Virus record (IMG/VR): IMGVR_UViG_3300001850_000308
Span: 1 to 22,663 of that record
DNA length: 22,663 bases
Strand: one strand, 5' to 3'
Origin: a virus
Below, piece after piece: positions 7,101-20,106 of this stretch; position 1 is the first letter of the stretch; each line of letters begins with the position of its first letter. Below the pieces are notes generated by a model. It made no database searches. It saw only the letters and a program-made list of their open reading frames with translations, and was not told the origin of the DNA. The translations under genes were made by a program, and so were the position numbers.

Positions 7101-7117
7101 TCTGTAATAACGCTCAT
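1115..7117 (-). CDS. 2000-aa DUF4815-type baseplate/tail structural protein
   Basis: The N-terminus (residues 1-60: APYFDDYSPEKLNSAGI, FRPGYAVQTRELNQLQSILQ, then VFKEGSIVIGG) matches the DUF4815 phage tail family as I recall it. A central part near residues 720-780 has a module ending VIRGYNGTT (R761). Around residue 1278 begins MSEYIRPRRISF.A.GMKPNT, then a sandwich-like domain with DVPFGMFFVGDRNFLLSD and ETTSAEARYTAQG. From residue 1413 comes DPLAETFFVDPVIYPEGVFI, then VDLYFKTKDSNIPLVVQIRE, a typical carbohydrate-module-like beta domain of this family. There are about eleven G-[A/S/E]-T-G tetrapeptides. The gene lies between gp8 and the fibre, so it probably forms the outer baseplate and anchors fibres, taking the place of T4 gp9-gp12, none of which is recognisable here. 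Its weak SD, GAGG, lies 12 nt upstream. The role is inferred; the family assignment is fairly secure. Confidence 0.85.
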   Translation of the reverse strand: MSVITELNSAPYFDDYSPEKLNSAGIPEVDKDFLRILFRPGYAVQTRELNQLQSILQMQVERFGKHVFKEGSIVIGGLTTIDTQTAKYLTIETNYNSYEVIVDDAQDLVITGTTSHNGVYAKGLVTVVADSDGTEPKTLIYKPLNGFAFEEGETISLEGKGNWATIKSGTFTGNDLETYSVIGDSSTVSIDDGIFFTKGTFVLNSKQTTYLHKYTNVPDKIAGLVSSVSIIDEDQDNTLLDNASGSYNYAAPGAHRLKINLTLESKDTGYTEDASKFIELLEVRQGKLYKQVSRPTYNELAKVLARRTYDESGDYTVRPFLLNIESYSGATGSFLGRLSSGKAYVKGYEVETIATQDLDIPKARTTETYSGADAPINYGNYINVKPVSSLPNINTFEKLYLYDQAGATGPIGYTRVRDIQYSGATGPNYKLHLFDTTITAASKTFANVLYLATGATGLNYTNSEKQFQLFNDTGATGMGLLNPGISPLVYNTGYTAVKELTDIQLTYRKYYSSVAVAGNACTIQSGSSRERFQGAAGTTLTASEALQYGYIISDASTGAQLTNFTLALDSPGAGSQQTATITFSPSQSNSVNIIAVINNNNASPNTKTQKNSEFTEGYVQLAASATSTVKVPSYVTSALVNTTPGNPLFKIVSGPNASDTTYSISSFSGDTITLATPIPAVSTADYFKVCPYFAAATSYTSSARGIVYAKPTTLNGSISSTTTTAVTLAAATVPTASIIKVDSEQMFVQSGGGTTSLTVIRGYNGTTAATHSSGAVVYLQAIGLNVPDVTRVNKIISSTTDPVMEDWFNPSKDATKNWSLDNGQRDNYYDIASIKLNSGVSSTNDAVVVFFDYLAHGVNDGFFCANSYSNKDIPYYYTTSVGKKINLLNSIDCRPTKTNPLTFGSTTLVSANTNFGYDSEYYLPRIDKIAVTVDGAFVDIQGIPSLTPKAPKDIDDGMTLYQLYVPAYTYTPNSISTKFIENKRYTMRDIGKLEKRIENVEYYTSLSALEKSTSLFNVKDTAGFDRFKNGFIVDSFTGHNVGDPGNSDYHCSIDVASQELRSEFRQKAYGLYLKTADSSNYQQRGDLITKNFTDATFINQPLASRSVNVNPFSVFNWIGNLTLTPNNDFWKDTRAVPADVNNPNGNLDNILIGSTPYGTLYNQWNNMWFGTETRITGFEETNIPELDLSWWRTTSVTNTTGSNTVAITSTNTSGQSSTTTTSVNPNGQTQALTQELVTLIIPAQTVQNPITEQVTVPIPPPITLTSISSGDIVRDVNMSEYIRPRRISFSATGMKPNTTVYPFFDGKLVSVYVTPTNGSLGGALTTSSTGSVSGTFDVPFGMFFVGDRNFLLSDVKTASNTPNRSQETTSAEARYTAQGLELTTTTLNIPVALPDPNAPFWRNVTTTPPRPIDPLAETFFVDPVIYPEGVFISKVDLYFKTKDSNIPLVVQIRETTNGYPSSSQVLCSTTVAAANVNVSQTAATATTVTFPNVVFLPPGEYAIVLISNSNNYEAWVAQIGEQQVATTKVISEQPYVGSLFKSQNASTWTAEQTQDLMFKLYRCDFITGTMTTVFTDWDATAGDNVVTIPTDKDKPTVGSTGFDPGTSGVVDSTNRTIKIKFHPYTNGSKVTYTGSTGFMGIPYGDYYVYRMNSDMIRLYYSKDDSLVGGATGLVPVVPDSTPGRSNTFNNGARVLYLNKIFLNYIVPGSGATLPTYINNGATIGMANNVEDIAVLSEDVLKTIPGATGITFSRKPEGPGVSDVVMVPAGYFNPFSSSKVSVAIQGATGALDGTYTTIVPNKNYQYNYQHNISASSESFLKKIVSTVTSPYVSPVINANRQSVVQIENIINNDVTGETGVSGGNAWAKYITRTVKLLNDSSYAKVFLTANKPSGTDVKVYYKIRSSSDSEVIDLKSWILMDQSSPDTSSFSPDPTEFLEYTYLPSNNASYTKVGGSGTKMIYTAGGATYEDFVEIKFKIVMTSPNTSFIPRVADFRAIVVE
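1119..1122 (-). promoter_or_regulatory. Shine-Dalgarno site GGAG deciding the start at 1113
   Basis: On the minus strand the sequence reads GGTGGAGTAATATGCAG, placing GGAG 5 nt before ATG 1113. It lies inside the final codons of the 2000-aa gene, so the two genes are probably translationally linked. It favours ATG 1113 over the in-frame ATG at 1128. Confidence 0.7.
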
Positions 7118-7138: not shown

Positions 7139-7146
7139 TATTTAGT
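7139..7146 (-). promoter_or_regulatory. Possible variant late promoter before the DUF4815 gene
   Basis: The minus strand reads CAATACTAAATAGG here, giving ACTAAATA, a variant of the T4 late box TATAAATA differing in its first two bases. It overlaps the stop codon of gp8 and would give a short leader containing the GAGG ribosome-binding site. It is only a weak candidate, because stop codons in AT-rich DNA readily create TAAATA by chance. Confidence 0.25.
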
Positions 7147-8713
7147 ATTGGATGATTACTTTAACATCTTCGATCTGATCGGGATATCTTGTAATAGCTT
7201 TTCTATTTTCGATATAAAGAACATTGCCCAGATTTGATACTGCTGTCGGATTAGTTGCGGCAGTAACTGTTGAAGAGACAGCACCAGAAGAAACATTGTT
7301 TGATCCATTAAAAGTACCAGAGATGGAACTTAGGTATAATTTCTTTGGTGCTGAAGTTGAATCATATTTAACGACTTTTCCAGTTGCACCAGAAGTTGCT
7401 TGTGTTACAGTAGAGTCTGCAACAAATGGACCGTTTGTTACTGTGCCTAATTCTAAAACAACTGTCTGATTAATAACGGAAGAATCTGCAATGATTCCAT
7501 AATGAGAGGTGGTGTCAGGTTGCACGTCCCAAGAATCAGAAAGAGTAATAACAGGAAGCAAAGAAGTTGAAGAGATTTTTCTTACTTGTCCCTTTCCTGG
7601 CCCATCTAAGATTATAATCTTTTTGCCTGCACTTGGGTAATAAGGCTTTGTGGAATCAGCATACGAGTGAGAAGTGTTCAATCCCATCTGAGTAGCAACG
7701 TTTAATCCCGTGGCACCTACTGTGTAGTAAGAGCTGGTAAAGATAGGATCTAGTATAAGAGAGATCTGACGATATTCATTTGTGTCTACAATAGAAGCGC
7801 CTTCGTCGCCGCTTACTCTTACCTTTACCATTACATTTGTTGCGTTTAATTCTTTTACAGGATCAGCGCCGTGATATGGAGAAGAACCTGCCACAGCATT
7901 TGTTTGAACATCCCATTGCAAACTGCTATCGTCAGAAGACAATGTCTTTACTGGAATCCAAGAAGAAGTATAGAACCTTTCGATATCAGCGGAAGAAAGA
8001 GTAAACATATACTTCCATTGATAACTATCGGCAGTTGTTTCTGAAACTCCAGCCGCTGTTGATGTAGAAGTCGGTTTAATTGTAGAAGCAGCACCAGAAT
8101 TATTTCCCAGACATTTATAGACATTATATTCGTCTGTAATTACATAAAATGGTCTTAGGCTAAATGTAGAAGAAGAAATAGCCGAAGGATCTGAGATTGT
8201 TACAGTTGGAGCAGAAGTATATCCAGAGCCACCATTAGTAATAGAGACAGAGATTACTGACCCTGAAGATATAGTTGCAGTTGCAGAAGCCGAACCAGAA
8301 CCAAAAGTAACAGTTGGAGCAGAAGTATATTCAGAACCTGGGTTAGTAATAGTAACAGCAGTCACTACACCGCCTGTAATAGTGACCGTGGCTGTTGCAG
8401 TTACATAAGTCTTAATTCTGGTTAGATCGGTAATATCTTCTGAAGATGAATATTGTTGATACCTCGCACCTGAAACCCAACCATAGTTTCTGATAACTCT
8501 AGCCGCGTTTGTTGACGAAACTTTCTTCGCATAAAGCATGTCTGTAAAGACATCAGAAGTTAGAGCATAAGAATCCTTGGGGATATCTGGTAGATTTTCA
8601 TTTGTCCAGGAATCTGGATTAGAGAAACCAAAATAGACCGATTCTTCGGCAATGGTATTTAAAAAATTATCAATGTTCTTGTGTCTCAAATTTGATGTTA
8701 AAATGTTTGGCAT
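7142..8713 (-). CDS. 8: Baseplate wedge protein gp8-like (523 aa)
   Basis: The two ends resemble T4 gp8 (334 aa): near the start FGFSNPDSWTNEN...VFTDMLYAKKV and NYGWVSGARY; then YNVYKCLGNN (about residue 197), YQWKYMFTLS, a conserved EYRQISLILDP, and the C-terminal LYIENRKAITRYPDQIEDVK. The extra length is largely explained by inserts. Residues about 103-177 hold two copies of a repeat V.ITN.GS.YTSAPTVT (119-137 and 156-174), and residues about 365-400 hold a GPGKGQ module also present in gp7. Two GATG tetrapeptides occur. In T4, gp8 joins gp7, gp10, gp6 and gp53 in the wedge; the order gp6-gp7-gp8 here agrees. The start has AAGG/GGG purines 4-12 nt upstream, and an exact late-promoter box lies about 100 nt upstream within gp7. 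Confidence 0.88.
   Translation of the reverse strand: MPNILTSNLRHKNIDNFLNTIAEESVYFGFSNPDSWTNENLPDIPKDSYALTSDVFTDMLYAKKVSSTNAARVIRNYGWVSGARYQQYSSSEDITDLTRIKTYVTATATVTITGGVVTAVTITNPGSEYTSAPTVTFGSGSASATATISSGSVISVSITNGGSGYTSAPTVTISDPSAISSSTFSLRPFYVITDEYNVYKCLGNNSGAASTIKPTSTSTAAGVSETTADSYQWKYMFTLSSADIERFYTSSWIPVKTLSSDDSSLQWDVQTNAVAGSSPYHGADPVKELNATNVMVKVRVSGDEGASIVDTNEYRQISLILDPIFTSSYYTVGATGLNVATQMGLNTSHSYADSTKPYYPSAGKKIIILDGPGKGQVRKISSTSLLPVITLSDSWDVQPDTTSHYGIIADSSVINQTVVLELGTVTNGPFVADSTVTQATSGATGKVVKYDSTSAPKKLYLSSISGTFNGSNNVSSGAVSSTVTAATNPTAVSNLGNVLYIENRKAITRYPDQIEDVKVIIQY
8202..8330. repeat. Two-copy direct repeat inside gp8
   Basis: Positions 8202-8222 and 8310-8330 are identical over 21 nt, with a period of 108 nt (36 codons). 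The flanking bases are also similar. In the protein they encode the two YTSAPTV segments. The strong identity at DNA level points to a fairly recent internal duplication in gp8, compared with the more diverged related copies in gp7. Confidence 0.8.
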
Positions 8714-8727
8714 TTTTCCCTATACCT

Positions 8728-11700
8728 TTAGATTACGGTAATTTCTGATTCTGATAAAACGTTTGTTCTCTTACCAGATGTGTTGTAATAACCCACAACG
8801 GAACCCACTAATATATTTATATCATTATATGAGATTTGTGTGGTATCAAACTCAAACGATCCAGGGTCTTTAATAACATACAATAAGTTTCTTTCTTTGT
8901 CCCAATATTCTACCTTCCCCTTTGCTCCACTGGCTGGTTGTAAGATATTTTCTCCAGGTTCAATGATAGATTCATCAAAATAAACATAAGGAGCTTCAAC
9001 ATACTCAGATCCCAAGTTTGTCATAGTAATCGAGGTAACAGAATCATTTGTTAATGTTGCAACAGCAGAAGCACCTGAACCTCCGCCTTTTCTAAATGTT
9101 ATTCTCGGGGTTTTAATGTAACCTTTGCCGCTGTTGTCAACGGTACAATTAAACACTGTTGTTGCGGTAACTGGATCCAAAATGGCTGTTGCGTGGGCTG
9201 TTTCAAATTTGTTTAAAGCGTCTGGTATTGATAAAATTACACCTGCCATAGCTGAATAATTCTCAACCTGTGCTGTTGGAGAATTAGTGTTGTACACATT
9301 TACATAAGCATACCCTGGTGTTGTTGGTGATGTCGCACCAACTTGAGTTAAAGTTACCAATGGAGTAAACAAATAACCGCTTCCTGGGTTAACAATAGTA
9401 ATTCCAGTAATGGCTCCTGTGGCTCCTACTGCTGCAACCGCCGTGGCAGTTGTGCCGTAAGGAGGTGCACCGATTGTTACAGAAACATAAACGCCTGTAG
9501 CACCAGAAGAATATCCAACGCCACTATTTGAAATTACGACCTCAGAAATCCCTGTTGCGCCGGAAGTATAATATCCATCATTAACCGAACCTGTGGCACC
9601 TGCAAAGTCAGGCACCAACCAATAAGTAGAATTCGAATTAGGACCAGTTGATCCTACGTTAATTGTGTGTCCTGAATTAAATCCTAGAACACCTGTAGCA
9701 CCATACGTTGTGACCTTAGAGAATTGACCTGCTCCTGGACCTGAGGTAACGTAGATTCTCCAGTTGCGATAACGGTGGTCGGTTTTATTATAGGCAGTTG
9801 CACCGATAGCATGTCCCGCAACCGAAGTCGAATTGTATCCTCTTGTAGCAGAGATATTAAAACAGCCTGTTGCACCGACAATGTAATTTACAAGAAGATC
9901 TTCTGAGTCAATTGCAAGAACGTCTCCGACCTTTACATTAAAGTTCTCAGAAGTGTTCAGAACAAATCCTGTAGCACCCACCGCTGCTGTTGCTCCTGTT
10001 GTTAAAGTAGAAATAGCGACAGGCGAATAGGGAACATAACGGTTAGGATCTAACACAGAAAGACCCAGAGCAGTGGCAGTTACATACGCAAATCTGTAAT
10101 TTTGGATAAGTCTGTATCCAATAGAAGTGGTAGAAACACCAGAAGTAAATGCGCTGTTAATAGTAATAACAGAAGTTGTTGGATTATATGCAGTTACATA
10201 TCTGTAATATGAAGTAGCTCCATCCGTTATAATCACAGACCAATTAACAAACTCGTCTTTATTAGTAGAAAATTTTGTAGCATCGGAAATATCAATTGTA
10301 GTATATGCTGTATTAGCAGTTACATTAGTTGTTCCGGAAAAATCAACATAAGGCGTTGGTATTGAATCTGATTTGGATTTATCTATGTCAAGATAAGTTG
10401 GACCAAGATCGGACAAAGTATATCCAATTCCGGTTGCTCCTGCACTATAAACTAACTCAGATACATAATAATCATCTGCGCCAGTAAACACATCGGTCAC
10501 AGAGAACAATCCAGTTGAACCGAGCACCACTGATTTTTCAAGATTTAATCTGATAAAATAAACAAGCCCAGCAGGATGAACTAATTCCTCTAACAAACCC
10601 TTGAATTGCTTAATCGATTCTTCTGATTGTAATTCATAAGAAAAATCTTGATAGTAATAAGGCAGTGCACCAGAAGCACCGTAAGCAATGTTTGGTGATC
10701 CTTGAATTTTCTTTGTAGAATCTAACTGCCCGTCGTCACCAATGTATCTACCGTTTGTAGAATAAAAGGCACCTGTGGCTCCATCCACATAAGTGTTGCC
10801 AAGTATACCTGTGGCACCTGTAATTGGATAAGTCAGTACAGTTTGTCCACCTGTGGGCGAAATGTAGCCATTAATTGTGGAAAGATACAATAAGGCATGC
10901 GGACCAGTAGAGCCAACCCGCTCTGCGTTTTCTAGAATGGCAGTAGCAACACCCGTCGCGCCTGTGATTAACAGTCTAGAACCAACATACTTATTCTGAA
11001 AGTCAGAAATATCTGATGGAGCTGGATACACTCTAAGAATATTATCCAACTGCCAGCGTCCTGCCGATGTACGAAGCACATCAACTTTTGGATAATAGAA
11101 GTTTACGTCCACGTTAAACAGAATTCTGTACAGAAAACGGACAGAATCTTCAATACCAGTTGAGTTGTAGAACTGGCGGATAAACTTTACAAACTTAGTT
11201 ACTTCTACTGAAGAAGCATCTGAGTTGTACAAATTCTGAGGTAAGGTAGGAATGTATTCATTTTTCAAGAAATCGATGAATAATTCCACTTCATTATCGA
11301 TATCTCTTGCCTGAGAAATAGATTTAGAAGTTTGACTTACTCCACCAGGAGAATCTATAATAACGGCTTCGGCGGTGGCTCCAGTTCCAGTTATATCTTG
11401 AATAACTATTCTTGGCTTTTCTTTTGATCTGTATCCACCACCGTAATTTGTTACTCGGATTTTCTCGAGCTTTCCATTTATAACATACGGTTGAAAGGTC
11501 GCGCCTTTGTTGTCCTGGATATATTCACCATAGGTAAACGAATCCGGATTTGTATCAATGATTTGTAGGGTAATTGTGGGATTAGCAGAGTAACTCTTGC
11601 CTGAATTTGTAACCTTTACAACAGGCAATTGTCCACTGGATCTGTCTAAGTAACTATAGTATTCCTTTATAAAGGATACAAATAATGGATATTCTTCCCT

Positions 11701-11757
11701 TACATACTGTGGGATTATTCTATCTACAAATAATGATCTCTTGAAGTTTAGATCCAT
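8728..11757 (-). CDS. 7: Baseplate wedge protein gp7-like (1009 aa)
   Basis: Three segments resemble the C-terminal half of T4 gp7 as I remember it: residues 13-37 (IIPQYVREEYPLFVSFIKEY; T4 has a similar FEAFCEAYIQYLS region), residues 186-220 (KFIRQFYNSTGIEDSVRFLY; T4 has FFESRSYDFYSTKGIEASYKFLF) and residues 386-400 (KGLLEELVHPAGLVY; T4 has VIRFVHPVGFGF). The T4 N-terminal portion has no counterpart. Instead there are six repeats V.[VI]TN.G.GY...P.[IV]T (near residues 48, 100, 740, 786, 871 and 909), a module with ATRGYNST (637-644), a GPGAGQ module (673-678), and 14 G-[A/S]-T-G tetrapeptides between 266 and 781. In T4, gp7 forms the wedge core with gp10, gp8, gp6, gp53 and gp25. The gene begins 1 nt after the gp6 stop. 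Assignment is strong from motifs plus position; the added repeats are of unknown role. Confidence 0.85.
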   Translation of the reverse strand: MDLNFKRSLFVDRIIPQYVREEYPLFVSFIKEYYSYLDRSSGQLPVVKVTNSGKSYSANPTITLQIIDTNPDSFTYGEYIQDNKGATFQPYVINGKLEKIRVTNYGGGYRSKEKPRIVIQDITGTGATAEAVIIDSPGGVSQTSKSISQARDIDNEVELFIDFLKNEYIPTLPQNLYNSDASSVEVTKFVKFIRQFYNSTGIEDSVRFLYRILFNVDVNFYYPKVDVLRTSAGRWQLDNILRVYPAPSDISDFQNKYVGSRLLITGATGVATAILENAERVGSTGPHALLYLSTINGYISPTGGQTVLTYPITGATGILGNTYVDGATGAFYSTNGRYIGDDGQLDSTKKIQGSPNIAYGASGALPYYYQDFSYELQSEESIKQFKGLLEELVHPAGLVYFIRLNLEKSVVLGSTGLFSVTDVFTGADDYYVSELVYSAGATGIGYTLSDLGPTYLDIDKSKSDSIPTPYVDFSGTTNVTANTAYTTIDISDATKFSTNKDEFVNWSVIITDGATSYYRYVTAYNPTTSVITINSAFTSGVSTTSIGYRLIQNYRFAYVTATALGLSVLDPNRYVPYSPVAISTLTTGATAAVGATGFVLNTSENFNVKVGDVLAIDSEDLLVNYIVGATGCFNISATRGYNSTSVAGHAIGATAYNKTDHRYRNWRIYVTSGPGAGQFSKVTTYGATGVLGFNSGHTINVGSTGPNSNSTYWLVPDFAGATGSVNDGYYTSGATGISEVVISNSGVGYSSGATGVYVSVTIGAPPYGTTATAVAAVGATGAITGITIVNPGSGYLFTPLVTLTQVGATSPTTPGYAYVNVYNTNSPTAQVENYSAMAGVILSIPDALNKFETAHATAILDPVTATTVFNCTVDNSGKGYIKTPRITFRKGGGSGASAVATLTNDSVTSITMTNLGSEYVEAPYVYFDESIIEPGENILQPASGAKGKVEYWDKERNLLYVIKDPGSFEFDTTQISYNDINILVGSVVGYYNTSGKRTNVLSESEITVI
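8814..8821 (-). promoter_or_regulatory. Internal T4-type late promoter upstream of gp8
   Basis: The minus strand reads GATATAAATATATTAG, containing an exact TATAAATA. It lies inside the 3' end of the gp7 gene. Transcription would start near 8808, about 95 nt before the gp8 start. T4 late promoters need only this -10 box, recognised by the gp55 sigma factor, so the match is meaningful, although AT-rich DNA can produce it by chance. Confidence 0.45.
9477..9539 (-). repeat. Example of gp7 N-G-GY repeat carrying a GATG insertion
   Basis: This stretch encodes gp7 residues about 740-760, VISNSGVGYS followed by SGATG and VYVSV. It is one of six related repeats in gp7, and the only one in which the tetrapeptide GATG sits inside the repeat, after the conserved GY, where other copies have a short three- or four-residue turn. 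Confidence 0.6.
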
Positions 11758-13579: not shown

Positions 13580-13975
13580 TTATCTGACTCTTTCTAGATT
13601 TACCTTTACTGTTACTGGCTCTGGGATGTTAACAACATAAAAGTGTATATCAATTCCAATTGAATTGTTATCGATGTTGTCAAAATTCACGTCTACTTTT
13701 ATTAACCTAGCTCTTGGTTCAAAGTTATTTATTACGTCTGAGATCTTTCTTTTAAGTGTAATAGCAGTAAACGCATCGGCATTTTCAAATAAAGAACGGT
13801 ATACGTCTGAGCCAAGGTTTGGAGAAAATGGTCTTTCTCCAAGGTTTGTTAAGACTAACAACTTCACAGATCTTTTAACAGCATCGATATCTTTAAGGGT
13901 GTAGATATCTCCTGTAGTGCTTTTCTCCAGGGAGATATCAAAATCCTTGTATCTGTTCTGTACAATTTTTGCCAT
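13580..13975 (-). CDS. 25: Baseplate wedge protein gp25 (131 aa)
   Basis: The length equals the usual 130-135 aa of T4 gp25. The family core is present: ALKxSVKLLVLTNLGERPF (residues 32-50, with V-K-R-S-V at the start) followed by PNLGSDVYRSLFEN (52-65). The ERPF...P..GS segment corresponds to the conserved EPR-type motif shared with type VI secretion TssE. Gp25 links the wedge and hub and helps start sheath assembly. It sits between the unrecognised 170-aa gene and gp6. The 12-nt gap before it is wholly AT (AATAAATAATAAAT) and lacks a Shine-Dalgarno site. Confidence 0.93.
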   Translation of the reverse strand: MAKIVQNRYKDFDISLEKSTTGDIYTLKDIDAVKRSVKLLVLTNLGERPFSPNLGSDVYRSLFENADAFTAITLKRKISDVINNFEPRARLIKVDVNFDNIDNNSIGIDIHFYVVNIPEPVTVKVNLERVR

Positions 13976-13981
13976 ATTTAT

Positions 13982-13989
13982 TATTTATT
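13982..13989 (-). promoter_or_regulatory. Possible late promoter variant immediately before gp25
   Basis: The minus strand reads CTAATAAATAATAAATATGGC. AATAAATA differs from TATAAATA at one base and lies 6 nt before ATG 13975, the same spacing as at gp4. It overlaps the stop codon of the preceding gene. With T4 promoter geometry, the mRNA would start about one base before the ATG. The match could be chance in this AT-only gap. Confidence 0.4.
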
Positions 13990-17859: not shown

Positions 17860-18876
17860 TTATTTTCCGAATAACCCACCAAGTGCTCCTGTCACTGAGT
17901 TGACTAACTGTTGTTCTTCTGCACCAGTTAACATTGGAGCTTCTTCTTTTTGGTGTTCATTGAAAACATCTGAGATAAGATCTTTGGTAATTAGTACCGT
18001 TTCCTTGAACCTGATTTTAAGATCAATTTCTACTGGTGCGCCTGTATTTCTGAACGTGGCGTATTCTCCTCCACCAGAATAGTCTACCTCCAGACTAGTG
18101 ATAACGCTGGTTGCGATCTTGGAAAGATATGTGTTCAATCTACAAAAAGTTTTTCCCTTTTCGTCTTTATCAATTCTCCAGAATTGAATATTAAAATCTG
18201 ATGGGTATTTGTATAGATACCCGCCTCCAACCAATGTTGGATGCATATGATATTTCAATTCGTTAATAATATTTTTGATTCCCTCAGATTCTTCTTGATT
18301 TTTTGCTATTAGCTTCCAGTTAAAATCAAATTCCCTGAACCTCGGACCTTGAAACAAAAGTTCTTTGTGCGGGTTCAATGCTAACTTATTTCTGAATCCT
18401 TCGACTTTAAGCCCATATATAGCAGCTTCTTTCACAAGCGACGCTGCCTTTCCTGCAATACCTCCTGCTATTGGAGCAGCAGCATTTAAGTATTTTTCAG
18501 CAAGGTCAGACATAGCTCCACCAGCAGACATTGCTAATTTAAGAGCTTCATTTCCAAATTCTAGATCTGTATAATCTACACCAAAGTTTGTTGCAATGTT
18601 TGTGGGAACAGGTAGATAGATAATTTTGGAAGTCTTTCTTCCTGTCTGGGGTGTAGGTGTAATTGTTAGAGAATTCCCAAACTGTTTATTACTGTAATAC
18701 TTAGCTAATTCTTGTCCAGTTAATCTAGTTCCATCTAACGCTTTGATTGTTCTAAATTCGTCTTGTTCTTCTTCTTTAACCGTATCAGTGTTTATGTACA
18801 GAGCCATAAATTGATTGCCGAATCGGTTAGAATCTGTTGCAAGAGTTGAGGGATATTTTAGAGCTTCAGTAGCCAT
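17860..18876 (-). CDS. 48: Baseplate tail-tube cap/junction protein gp48-like (338 aa)
   Basis: The open frame extends to an ATG at 18915, but ATG 18876 (MATEALKYPSTLATDSNRFG) is preferred. The 13 upstream codons would be translated from inside the divergent promoter, and the YPS...DSNR start is family-like. The segment FQGPRFREFDFNWKLIAKN (about residue 181 on) followed by ESEGIKNIINELKYHMHP is characteristic of gp48-type tube junction proteins, as is FNIQFWRI. A hydrophobic Ala/Gly-rich helix (about 101-145, AAAPIAGGIAGKAASL) precedes it. T4 gp48 is 364 aa and sits on the hub, where the tube starts. There is no Shine-Dalgarno; the ATG coincides with the expected transcription start of the late promoter. 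gp54 or a related tube protein is the main alternative. Confidence 0.82.
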   Translation of the reverse strand: MATEALKYPSTLATDSNRFGNQFMALYINTDTVKEEEQDEFRTIKALDGTRLTGQELAKYYSNKQFGNSLTITPTPQTGRKTSKIIYLPVPTNIATNFGVDYTDLEFGNEALKLAMSAGGAMSDLAEKYLNAAAPIAGGIAGKAASLVKEAAIYGLKVEGFRNKLALNPHKELLFQGPRFREFDFNWKLIAKNQEESEGIKNIINELKYHMHPTLVGGGYLYKYPSDFNIQFWRIDKDEKGKTFCRLNTYLSKIATSVITSLEVDYSGGGEYATFRNTGAPVEIDLKIRFKETVLITKDLISDVFNEHQKEEAPMLTGAEEQQLVNSVTGALGGLFGK

Positions 18877-18881
18877 ACAAC

Positions 18882-18889
18882 TATTTATA
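18882..18889 (-). promoter_or_regulatory. T4-type late promoter for the leftward baseplate operon
   Basis: The minus strand reads AGTATAAATAGTTGTATGGC. The exact T4 late box TATAAATA is followed by 5 nt and then ATG 18876. With T4 geometry (box at about -13 to -6) the transcript would begin at or very near the A of the ATG. It forms one arm of a perfect 17-bp palindrome with the plus-strand promoter. Confidence 0.8.
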
Positions 18890-18890
18890 C

Positions 18891-18898
18891 TATAAATA
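18891..18898 (+). promoter_or_regulatory. T4-type late promoter for the rightward gp4 operon
   Basis: The plus strand reads CTATAAATAACCATAATGAGG. TATAAATA is followed by 6 nt and then ATG 18905, so transcription would start about one base before the start codon. No Shine-Dalgarno precedes gp4. Confidence 0.8.
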
Positions 18899-18904
18899 AC
18901 CATA

Positions 18905-19351
18905 ATGAGGAACACTTATAAGGGAAAGTTCACACCGAAAAACCCACACAAGTACAGAGGCGACGTAAACAATATTGTCTTTAGATCTTCCTGGGAATAT
19001 AAACTAATGAAGTTCTTGGACGATTATGACGATGTCTTAGAATACGGATCAGAAGAAATAATCATACCTTATATCTCTCCGTTAGATGGCAAGATGCATC
19101 GTTACTTTGTAGACTTTTATGTAAAGCTACGGGACTCTTCTGGGAAAATCCAGACTTATATTATAGAAGTAAAGCCATGGGTCCAGACTCAGCCACCTGT
19201 TCAAAAGAAAAGGGTAACAGCTGGGTATCTAAAAGAATGTCAAACCTTTGCTGTAAACCAAGCCAAGTGGAAAGCAGCAGAGAAATTTGCCCAGATAAAC
19301 GGAATCCAGTTTAAGGTAATGACCGAAAAAGAATTGTTTGGTAGGCAATAA
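18905..19351 (+). CDS. 4: Head completion protein gp4 (148 aa)
   Basis: The full length matches T4 gp4 (150 aa) with shared blocks: GKFTPKNPHKYRGD, then IVFRSSWEYKLMKFLDDYDD, SEEIIIPYISPLDGKMHRYF, VDFYVK, YIIEVKPWVQTQPP, NQAKWKAAEKFAQ and the C-terminal TEKELFG. The pattern E (in SSWE), D (in YFVDF) and E-V-K fits a PD-(D/E)XK-like nuclease core, as has been noted for gp4/TnsA-like folds. In T4, gp4 acts after DNA packaging to finish the head for tail joining. Its place beside gp53 and gp5 recalls T4, where gene 4 also neighbours 53 and 5, although here it faces away from them. It has no Shine-Dalgarno and begins immediately after a late promoter. Confidence 0.93.
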   Translation: MRNTYKGKFTPKNPHKYRGDVNNIVFRSSWEYKLMKFLDDYDDVLEYGSEEIIIPYISPLDGKMHRYFVDFYVKLRDSSGKIQTYIIEVKPWVQTQPPVQKKRVTAGYLKECQTFAVNQAKWKAAEKFAQINGIQFKVMTEKELFGRQ

Positions 19352-19354
19352 ATA
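19347..19354 (+). promoter_or_regulatory. Possible late promoter variant before the tube-fold gene
   Basis: The plus strand reads GGCAATAAATAATAGTATGCC. AATAAATA (one mismatch to TATAAATA) lies 5 nt before ATG 19360, the same spacing as at the gp48 start. It overlaps the gp4 stop codon, so chance is possible. Confidence 0.4.
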
Positions 19355-19359
19355 ATAGT

Positions 19360-20106
19360 ATGCCTTTAAACCTACAAGAATTCATTTCAAATGTTTCTAG
19401 TGACACTCTGAAAAAGTCTAGATTTGAAGTTAAATTTTTAAGTTTTCCGAGTGTAACTAGTGATTTTTTAAATCTAGACCCAACAGAAGAACCAGTGTTT
19501 AGAGGCGGAACCTTTGACGTTAAGAACCTGACGTTTCGATGTGAATCTTGTTCTCTTCCAGGAATGCAGTTACTCACTAAAGACTATAAGTTGTATTCTG
19601 GGATGCCAAACCTAAAAATTCCAAACGGTAGAGAACACGACGACATCGACTTTACCTTTATTTCTTCCTCAGAGATGAGAGAAAAAAAGGCGATTGAAGC
19701 CTGGATTTACACGATCAATAATTTCTCAAATAACAACCTGGCGTATTATGACGACATTAAAGCGGATATCCAGATAGATGTGTATAGCGACGAATTTAAA
19801 TCGGCAACAGCAGATTATAAAATTACATATGAGCCTCCATATCAAGACGAAAGATTTAGAGGCACCTTGACTGAAATAATTCCAGGAACTCCATCTGGTC
19901 CAAAAAAAGTCTATTCAATTAAACTAATCGGCGCATATCCTCTCAGATTAGAAAGTCTTCCAGTTTCCTGGAACGACACAGATGAATTGATTAAATTCAC
20001 AACAACGTTTACATACGAACAACTAGAATTTATAGCAGAAGGTTTTTCTCATAATGAAAAGACCTTTGATAGAACCAATCAACCCAGCGACATACCAGCT
20101 CAATAA
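19360..20106 (+). CDS. 54: Tail-tube-fold protein, probably baseplate tube initiator gp54 (248 aa)
   Basis: The protein has the outline of the T4 gp19/gp54 tail-tube fold. An N-terminal LKKSRFEVKF strand is followed by LTFRCESCSLPGMQLLTKDY (about 53-72), then a middle part with DDIDFTFISSSEMREKKAIE and WIYTINNF (an extended strand and a helix), and a C-terminal YSIKLIGAYPLRLESLPVSW followed by DELIKFTTTFTYEQLEF. The last block resembles T4 gp19 LWPTNVGELQLDWDSN...IQTFEVTLALDYWE. At 248 aa it is longer than the major tube protein (163 aa) and shorter than T4 gp54 (320 aa), so tube initiator is preferred, with a tube protein variant as alternative. No good Shine-Dalgarno lies at a normal distance. 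Its position before gp26 and a tape-measure gene agrees with a role in tube or hub formation. Confidence 0.7.
   Translation: MPLNLQEFISNVSSDTLKKSRFEVKFLSFPSVTSDFLNLDPTEEPVFRGGTFDVKNLTFRCESCSLPGMQLLTKDYKLYSGMPNLKIPNGREHDDIDFTFISSSEMREKKAIEAWIYTINNFSNNNLAYYDDIKADIQIDVYSDEFKSATADYKITYEPPYQDERFRGTLTEIIPGTPSGPKKVYSIKLIGAYPLRLESLPVSWNDTDELIKFTTTFTYEQLEFIAEGFSHNEKTFDRTNQPSDIPAQ

Follow-up and report, generated by a model that had tools for sequence, protein, structure and literature searches.

Late promoters and leaderless genes in described systems

The late promoters of phage T4, which depend on gp55, gp33, and gp45, have the octamer TATAAATA; they stand before late structural genes on both strands and have no conserved -35 element (PMC2988020, section 3; PMC1524935, section 12). 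The late box spans positions -13 to -6 of the start point (PMC1524935, section 12; PMC2988020, section 3, where the first base is named -13). In phage Aeh1 the late box is CTAAATA, starting at -12, and it ends at -6 as the T4 box does (PMC1524935, section 12). According to PMC7892883, gp33 contacts the upstream duplex in the T4 complex, and gp45, which encircles the DNA, acts as a tether for the polymerase.

Late transcription in T4 is textbook knowledge. The late boxes of T2 and Syn9 lie about 20-35 nt before the ATG, which leaves room for leaders with Shine-Dalgarno sites. T2 also has two outward-facing late boxes that share four bases (TATTTATAAATA) between divergent baseplate-hub genes. 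These boxes are 17 and 21 nt from their ATGs, with AAGGAG sites in between. Overlapping divergent late promoters were reportedly described in 1989 by Scarlato et al. for the T4 baseplate cluster, between genes 51 and 26.

Bacteria offer two further comparisons. In bidirectional promoters with a symmetric -10 element, the -10 bases of the two strands coincide and the starts are usually 18 bp apart (defined as 7-25; PMC10268837). Leaderless genes with Pribnow-like signals are frequent in Actinobacteria and Deinococcus-Thermus (PMC3160421). Phage transcripts are often leaderless in general (PMC5312081). In the literature that we searched, mostly outside subscription journals, we recognized no paper describing leaderless late messages in T4-like phages.

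Two late boxes in a 28-bp gap

The window is the whole IMG/VR virus record IMGVR_UViG_3300001850_000308 (22,663 bases). Positions 18882-18898 match TATTTATA-C-TATAAATA, or TATTTATACTATAAATA, exactly. The first-pass annotation described this as a perfect 17-bp palindrome, and the sequence agrees: the arms are 8 bp long, and the flanking C 18881 and A 18899 are unpaired. Two of the three copies of TATAAATA in the whole window are within the palindrome. Its left arm is directed at the ATG of 17860-18876 (-) and its right arm at the ATG of 18905-19351 (+), and it fills 17 of the 28 bp between the two start codons (Table 1). In 1,500 dinucleotide-preserving shuffles of the window, the full octamer pair never appeared, whether at a spacing of 1 or of 0-8. 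The looser core pair TATTTA-(0-12)-TAAATA appeared in 171 of them, so it is the full octamers that carry the significance.

Table 1. Features at the palindrome and at the other late boxes of the window
Feature	Position	Strand	Remarks
Box variant CTAAATA, candidate leadered late promoter	7139..7145	-	21 nt before ATG at 7117
gp25-like baseplate wedge gene, downstream of the 13982 box	13580..13975	-	phrog_261, E 1.3e-44
Late box variant AATAAATA	13982..13989	-	6 nt before ATG at 13975
gp48-like baseplate tail tube cap gene, first of left operon	17860..18876	-	phrog_230, E 3.7e-50
Start codon of left gene	18874..18876	-	its A is the predicted +1 by the T4 rule (box at -13 to -6); leaderless
Left-firing late box TATAAATA	18882..18889	-	exact match; ends 5 nt before ATG at 18876
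Right-firing late box TATAAATA	18891..18898	+	exact match; ends 6 nt before ATG at 18905
Predicted +1 (18904 or 18905) and start codon (18905-18907) of gp4	18904..18907	+	leader of 0-1 nt predicted by the T4 rule
gp4-like head completion/closure gene, first of right operon	18905..19351	+	phrog_218, E 2.1e-58; has relatives
Late box variant AATAAATA	19347..19354	+	overlaps gp4 stop codon; 5 nt before ATG at 19360
Tail-tube-like gene, downstream of the 19347 box	19360..20106	+	phrog_45, E 2.7e-36

Both arms have the T4 octamer in the orientation of a promoter before virion genes, with no -35 element needed. A sigma-70-type scan of 18600-19200 found one site (1.7 expected), at 18691-18718 (-), outside the palindrome. 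Given these exact octamers, the late structural genes on both sides, and the paired boxes at homologous junctions (below), the palindrome is probably two T4-type late promoters placed back-to-back, a reading of the first-pass annotation that context and homology support. Genes for gp55, gp33, or gp45 were not seen in the 22,663-base record.

The distance to the start codons sets this site apart from T2 and Syn9. With a box at -13 to -6, a 5-nt gap puts the A of the AUG at +1, so with gaps of 5 and 6 nt the left message is predicted to be leaderless and the right one to have a leader of at most 1 nt. Neither gene is preceded by a Shine-Dalgarno site (we read both upstream regions); the box occupies that place. 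This geometry at both genes, which the first-pass annotation did not mention, may well be the main point of the site. In bacterial leaderless genes, too, a promoter signal immediately upstream of the start codon replaces the Shine-Dalgarno site (PMC3160421), but here the signal would be the box of a phage late sigma factor, in T4-like phages. Like the symmetric -10 promoters of PMC10268837, the site would give two opposite-strand starts from closely placed -10 DNA. It falls outside that class, however: it has two separate boxes with one base between them, a phage sigma factor, and predicted starts (18876 and 18904/18905) that are 28-29 bp apart.

We propose, with a probability of roughly 0.78, that the palindrome is a pair of T4-type late promoters, each of which starts transcription at, or one base before, the AUG of a divergent operon. 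Host RNA polymerase with a phage late sigma factor (gp55 type), a coactivator, and a sliding clamp would open either box, and the opened box would yield a leaderless mRNA. Each box would sit at about -13 to -6 of the AUG, where the ribosome-binding site usually is, and would serve the first gene of its own late operon. Because leaders would be unneeded, the two operons could share a 28-bp gap, and the palindrome would be a by-product of packing two outward leaderless promoters into it. The right gap of 6 nt, rather than 5, counts against this proposal.

Spacing between late boxes and start codons

A spacing of 5 nt between box and ATG is sharply preferred. Across 85 deduplicated loci gathered by protein similarity (697 kb, 827 ORFs), 43 copies of ATAAATA end 5 nt before an ATG; the counts at 4, 6, and 7 nt are 9, 8, and 7, and no other distance has more than 9. 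There is a second, broad peak near 27-30 nt, and permuted control motifs give no peak at 5 nt. In a wider count, with more loci and whole genomes, we counted different 8-residue N-termini at distances of 0 to 45: 80 have a box at 5 nt and no other distance has more than 17, so the peak is one base wide. A Shine-Dalgarno motif accompanies 5/117 in the class with the box at 4-7 nt, as compared to 86/178 at 19-36 nt, but this scarcity is largely forced because the box fills that place. Boxes at 5 nt also stand singly before many late genes.

In HTVC008M, a cultured phage of Pelagibacter, an abundant marine bacterium, 11 of the 178 regions upstream of first ATGs have a box at 5 nt (mean 0.40 and maximum 4 in 500 shuffles), with no excess at 20-40 nt (5, and 5.6 expected). 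T2, Syn9, and C48C1 have none at 5 nt (0/230, 0/174, and 0/175) and 23, 20, and 11 at 20-40 nt, where 6.4, 2.2, and 2.9 are expected. Both kinds occur together in contig G006 (3/137 at 5 nt; 11 at 20-40 nt, 3.5 expected). The counts are small for contig G005 (2/55 at 5 nt; 2 at 20-40 nt, 1.6 expected) and for the window (1/16 under the strict first-ATG rule; 1 at 20-40 nt, 0.3 expected). A wider rule finds two ORFs in the window with a box at 5 nt and two at 6 nt.

The N-terminus MAYSGK of gp4 is common to T2, where it follows AAGGAG, and to many relatives with the box at 5 nt, so the gp4 start codon is homologous among them.

Late boxes in HTVC008M

All 11 starts with a box at 5 nt in HTVC008M are annotated starts. 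They include those of the tape measure, gp48, gp2, gp4, a wedge subunit, a tail completion gene, and the curli gene csgF. The A of the AUG is at 18916 in gp2, 18943 in gp4, 19456 in gp48, and 31132 in gp25. The genome has annotated genes for the late sigma factor, the late-promoter factor, and the clamp. Operon-internal genes, the sheath gene, and the major head genes have Shine-Dalgarno sites instead, which implies that a single phage uses the two kinds of start.

At the junction of gp2 and gp4, HTVC008M has CAT-GTTAC-TATTTATA-TCTAAATA-AGGAT-ATG, with gaps of 5 nt on both sides (the order is gp2 / gp4-gp48-gp53, where the slash marks the junction). Both boxes are retained in its relatives L179-L203, down to 59% identity in gp4, and mostly end 5-6 nt from the ATGs, with changes in the spacer and in the neighboring codons. 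In L192-L196 and L199, the left box lies 8 nt from its ATG, and relatives past L203 do not keep the pair.

The box 5 nt upstream of the csgF ATG (L136, 7562) is a perfect late box, so csgF would be a leaderless late gene.

Paired boxes at other junctions

Both arms are conserved at homologous junctions. The first-pass annotation had proposed comparing orthologous junctions for paired boxes: they are present in the window's clade and in Pelagibacter phages, but at the gp4 junctions of T2 and Syn9 the boxes face inward, with leaders. Most pairs in the clade of the window abut or overlap; in L085 and L107, 7 bp separate the boxes. Among relatives the box-to-box spacing ranges from -4 to +8 bp (-4 to +7 at divergent junctions, with G005 at -4), and the box-to-ATG gap is mostly 5-6 nt. 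In the rows nearest to the window's gp4, the right box is 11 nt (L002/L003) or 9 nt (L004/L098) from the ATG. The message predicted at these distances has a leader a few bases long, and the exact spacing is thus not constant even among close kin.

At the inward-facing junctions of T2 (L122, 1430-1520) and Syn9 (L120, 1400-1490), each transcript would cross the promoter of the other, so that the leaders would be antisense to each other where they overlap.

Two good boxes occur at 35 divergent junctions, back-to-back at 13 and face-to-face at 22 (two of the latter, L032 and L039, look like misread starts). A gap of at most 7 nt on at least one side occurs in 11/13 of the back-to-back junctions and 0/22 of the face-to-face ones. 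This split is in part a matter of geometry, as outward is the only direction that leaderless promoters can face in a short gap.

At least 119 stretches of IMG/VR match the double-leaderless pattern, in which the gaps are 5 and 5-6 nt, as compared to 21 for a control pattern with gaps of 7 and 7-8 nt and 14 for one with gaps of 9 and 9-10 nt. ORFs of at least 60 aa lie on both sides at 51/64 unique sites for the 5-nt pattern (among the matches listed), 8/15 for the 7-nt pattern, and 3/10 for the 9-nt pattern, so some control sites also have genes on both sides. The space from TATTTATA to TAAATA is spread over 0-8 (54 unique sites, from 117 of the at least 119 stretches). The gene pairs vary: we scanned 20 proteins from 15 sites and found gp48/gp4, gp2/gp4, NUDIX/homing endonuclease, sheath stabilizer/Hc2, tail tube/glycosyltransferase, and others of no assigned kind.

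Contig G005 (L161, 5573-5597) has TATTTATAAATA, in which the outward boxes share four bases. They take up half of a 23-bp gap and end 5 and 6 nt from the ATGs. The neighboring genes are polynucleotide-kinase-like and NAD-synthetase/homing-endonuclease-like.

In a tree of 113 gp4 rows, the box is at 4-7 nt in 40, further away in 39, and absent by our rule in 34. The close-box state requires 13 changes, and at least 8 of these changes are forced by well-supported branches, on a tree with few columns and many weak forks. We somewhat favor the view that many marine and freshwater T4-like phages, including Pelagibacter phages, transcribe the first genes of their late operons into leaderless mRNAs; that one phage-sigma box sets the start of both RNA and protein; and that this arrangement was gained or lost repeatedly, letting divergent operons share gaps of 23-38 bp.

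If so, this would explain why a search for middle and late promoters in pelagimyophages was unsuccessful, as PMC7029224 reports. A phage sigma factor would directly set translation starts in abundant aquatic relatives of T4, and late messages could be translated apart from those led by Shine-Dalgarno sites. Late promoters would be easy to annotate (a box 5 nt before an ATG), calls of start codons and operons could be corrected, and whether ribosomes late in infection favor leaderless messages would become testable.

We also considered a link between leaderless late genes and a phage-encoded S21 ribosomal protein. Among 24 records, most of them fragments, S21 is in HTVC008M only, so no link is demonstrable.

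Other readings of the palindrome

The first-pass annotation suggested that the site sets the ratio of the two operons: the palindrome would be selected as one unit, and the polymerase would be forced to choose a direction. Two predicted open complexes would hardly fit side by side, given the gp33 and gp45 contacts (PMC7892883), and the box pair is retained at homologous junctions. Mutual exclusion of two polymerases is plausible, and likely on steric grounds, because the upstream DNA of each promoter is here the other promoter; we would expect the site to be used by one polymerase at a time. However, the box-to-box spacing drifts (-4 to +7, and 0-8 in IMG/VR) while the box-to-ATG spacing is nearly fixed, so selection seems to act on each promoter together with its own start codon. 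Late boxes at the same spacing also stand singly before many genes, and at the gp4 junctions of T2 and Syn9 the boxes face inward. The comparison of sequences thus gives no support to a tuned switch or ratio-setter, and we consider this explanation unlikely.

Alternatively, the boxes could be late promoters with unusual start points, with RNA starting upstream of the AUG or with the real start codons further downstream, so that there are leaders after all. The mRNA 5' ends discussed here are predicted ones, and gaps of 9-11 nt on the right side in some near relatives would fit. But a peak at 5 nt that is one base wide, the -6 box end common to T4 and Aeh1, the annotated starts of HTVC008M, and the match of the gp4 N-terminus to T2 all make this quite improbable.

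Palindromes of such size often bind dimers, and a perfect 8-bp inverted repeat could be the operator of a dimeric DNA-binding protein rather than a promoter pair. Yet the spacing of the arms varies by about 10 bp among relatives, the arms vary as late boxes do (the first base is free, with C at the second place), and single arms stand at the same distance from the ATG before many late genes, so we give an operator very little credence. Operator, hairpin, and terminator readings also find no backing in the DNA fold of 18860-18925, which is unremarkable (z -0.49), or in the arm spacing, which is not kept. An Rfam scan of the window gave no match.

Chance AT-rich sequence in a short gap is hardly credible: the gap is AT-rich and the core-only pair is seen in 171 of the shuffles, but the full pair is absent from all 1,500 and is conserved in relatives.

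Genes and other late boxes in the window

Under the preferred reading, two leaderless late promoters, the palindrome would serve two operons of virion genes. The left operon (-) encodes a gp48-like tube cap, a gp53-like wedge protein, a tail protein, a gp5-like hub, an orphan, gp25- and gp6-like wedge proteins, two proteins with wedge/Hc2-like matches, and one 2000-aa protein. The right operon (+) encodes gp4, a tail-tube-like protein, a baseplate-hub protein, and a protein with a weak tape-measure match. Some of these T4 gene numbers are presumed ones, assigned from the family names. The profile hits roughly match the wedge/spike operon (left) and head-completion/tape-measure operon (right) that were named in the first-pass annotation, with the tape-measure match being weak.

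The gene order is that of cyanophage Syn9 (gp53-gp48 / gp4), unlike HTVC008M (gp2 / gp4-gp48). In T2, by the annotated product names, the order is gp53 / gp4-gp2. A 5,856-base contig (L001/L082) carries gp4 and gp48-like proteins identical to the window's. Searches of viral_contigs with the gp48-like and gp6-like proteins gave identical matches only, and tRNAs in three related contigs gave no lead to the host of the window's phage.

The box at 19347 has a counterpart at 5-7 nt in seven relatives (L002, L085, L086, L087, L098, L107, and L118).

The third copy of TATAAATA, at 8814-8821 (-), lies inside a 1009-aa ORF, about 100 nt before the next gene start (8713), and is a possible internal late promoter. 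Inside the gp4 gene, at 19139-19154, there is a terminator-like hairpin with a T-rich tail (one found, as compared to 0.2 expected in the scanned stretch). Finally, the adjoining 523- and 1009-aa proteins at 7142-11757 match the same wedge, Hc2, and virion families, which suggests repeated domains.
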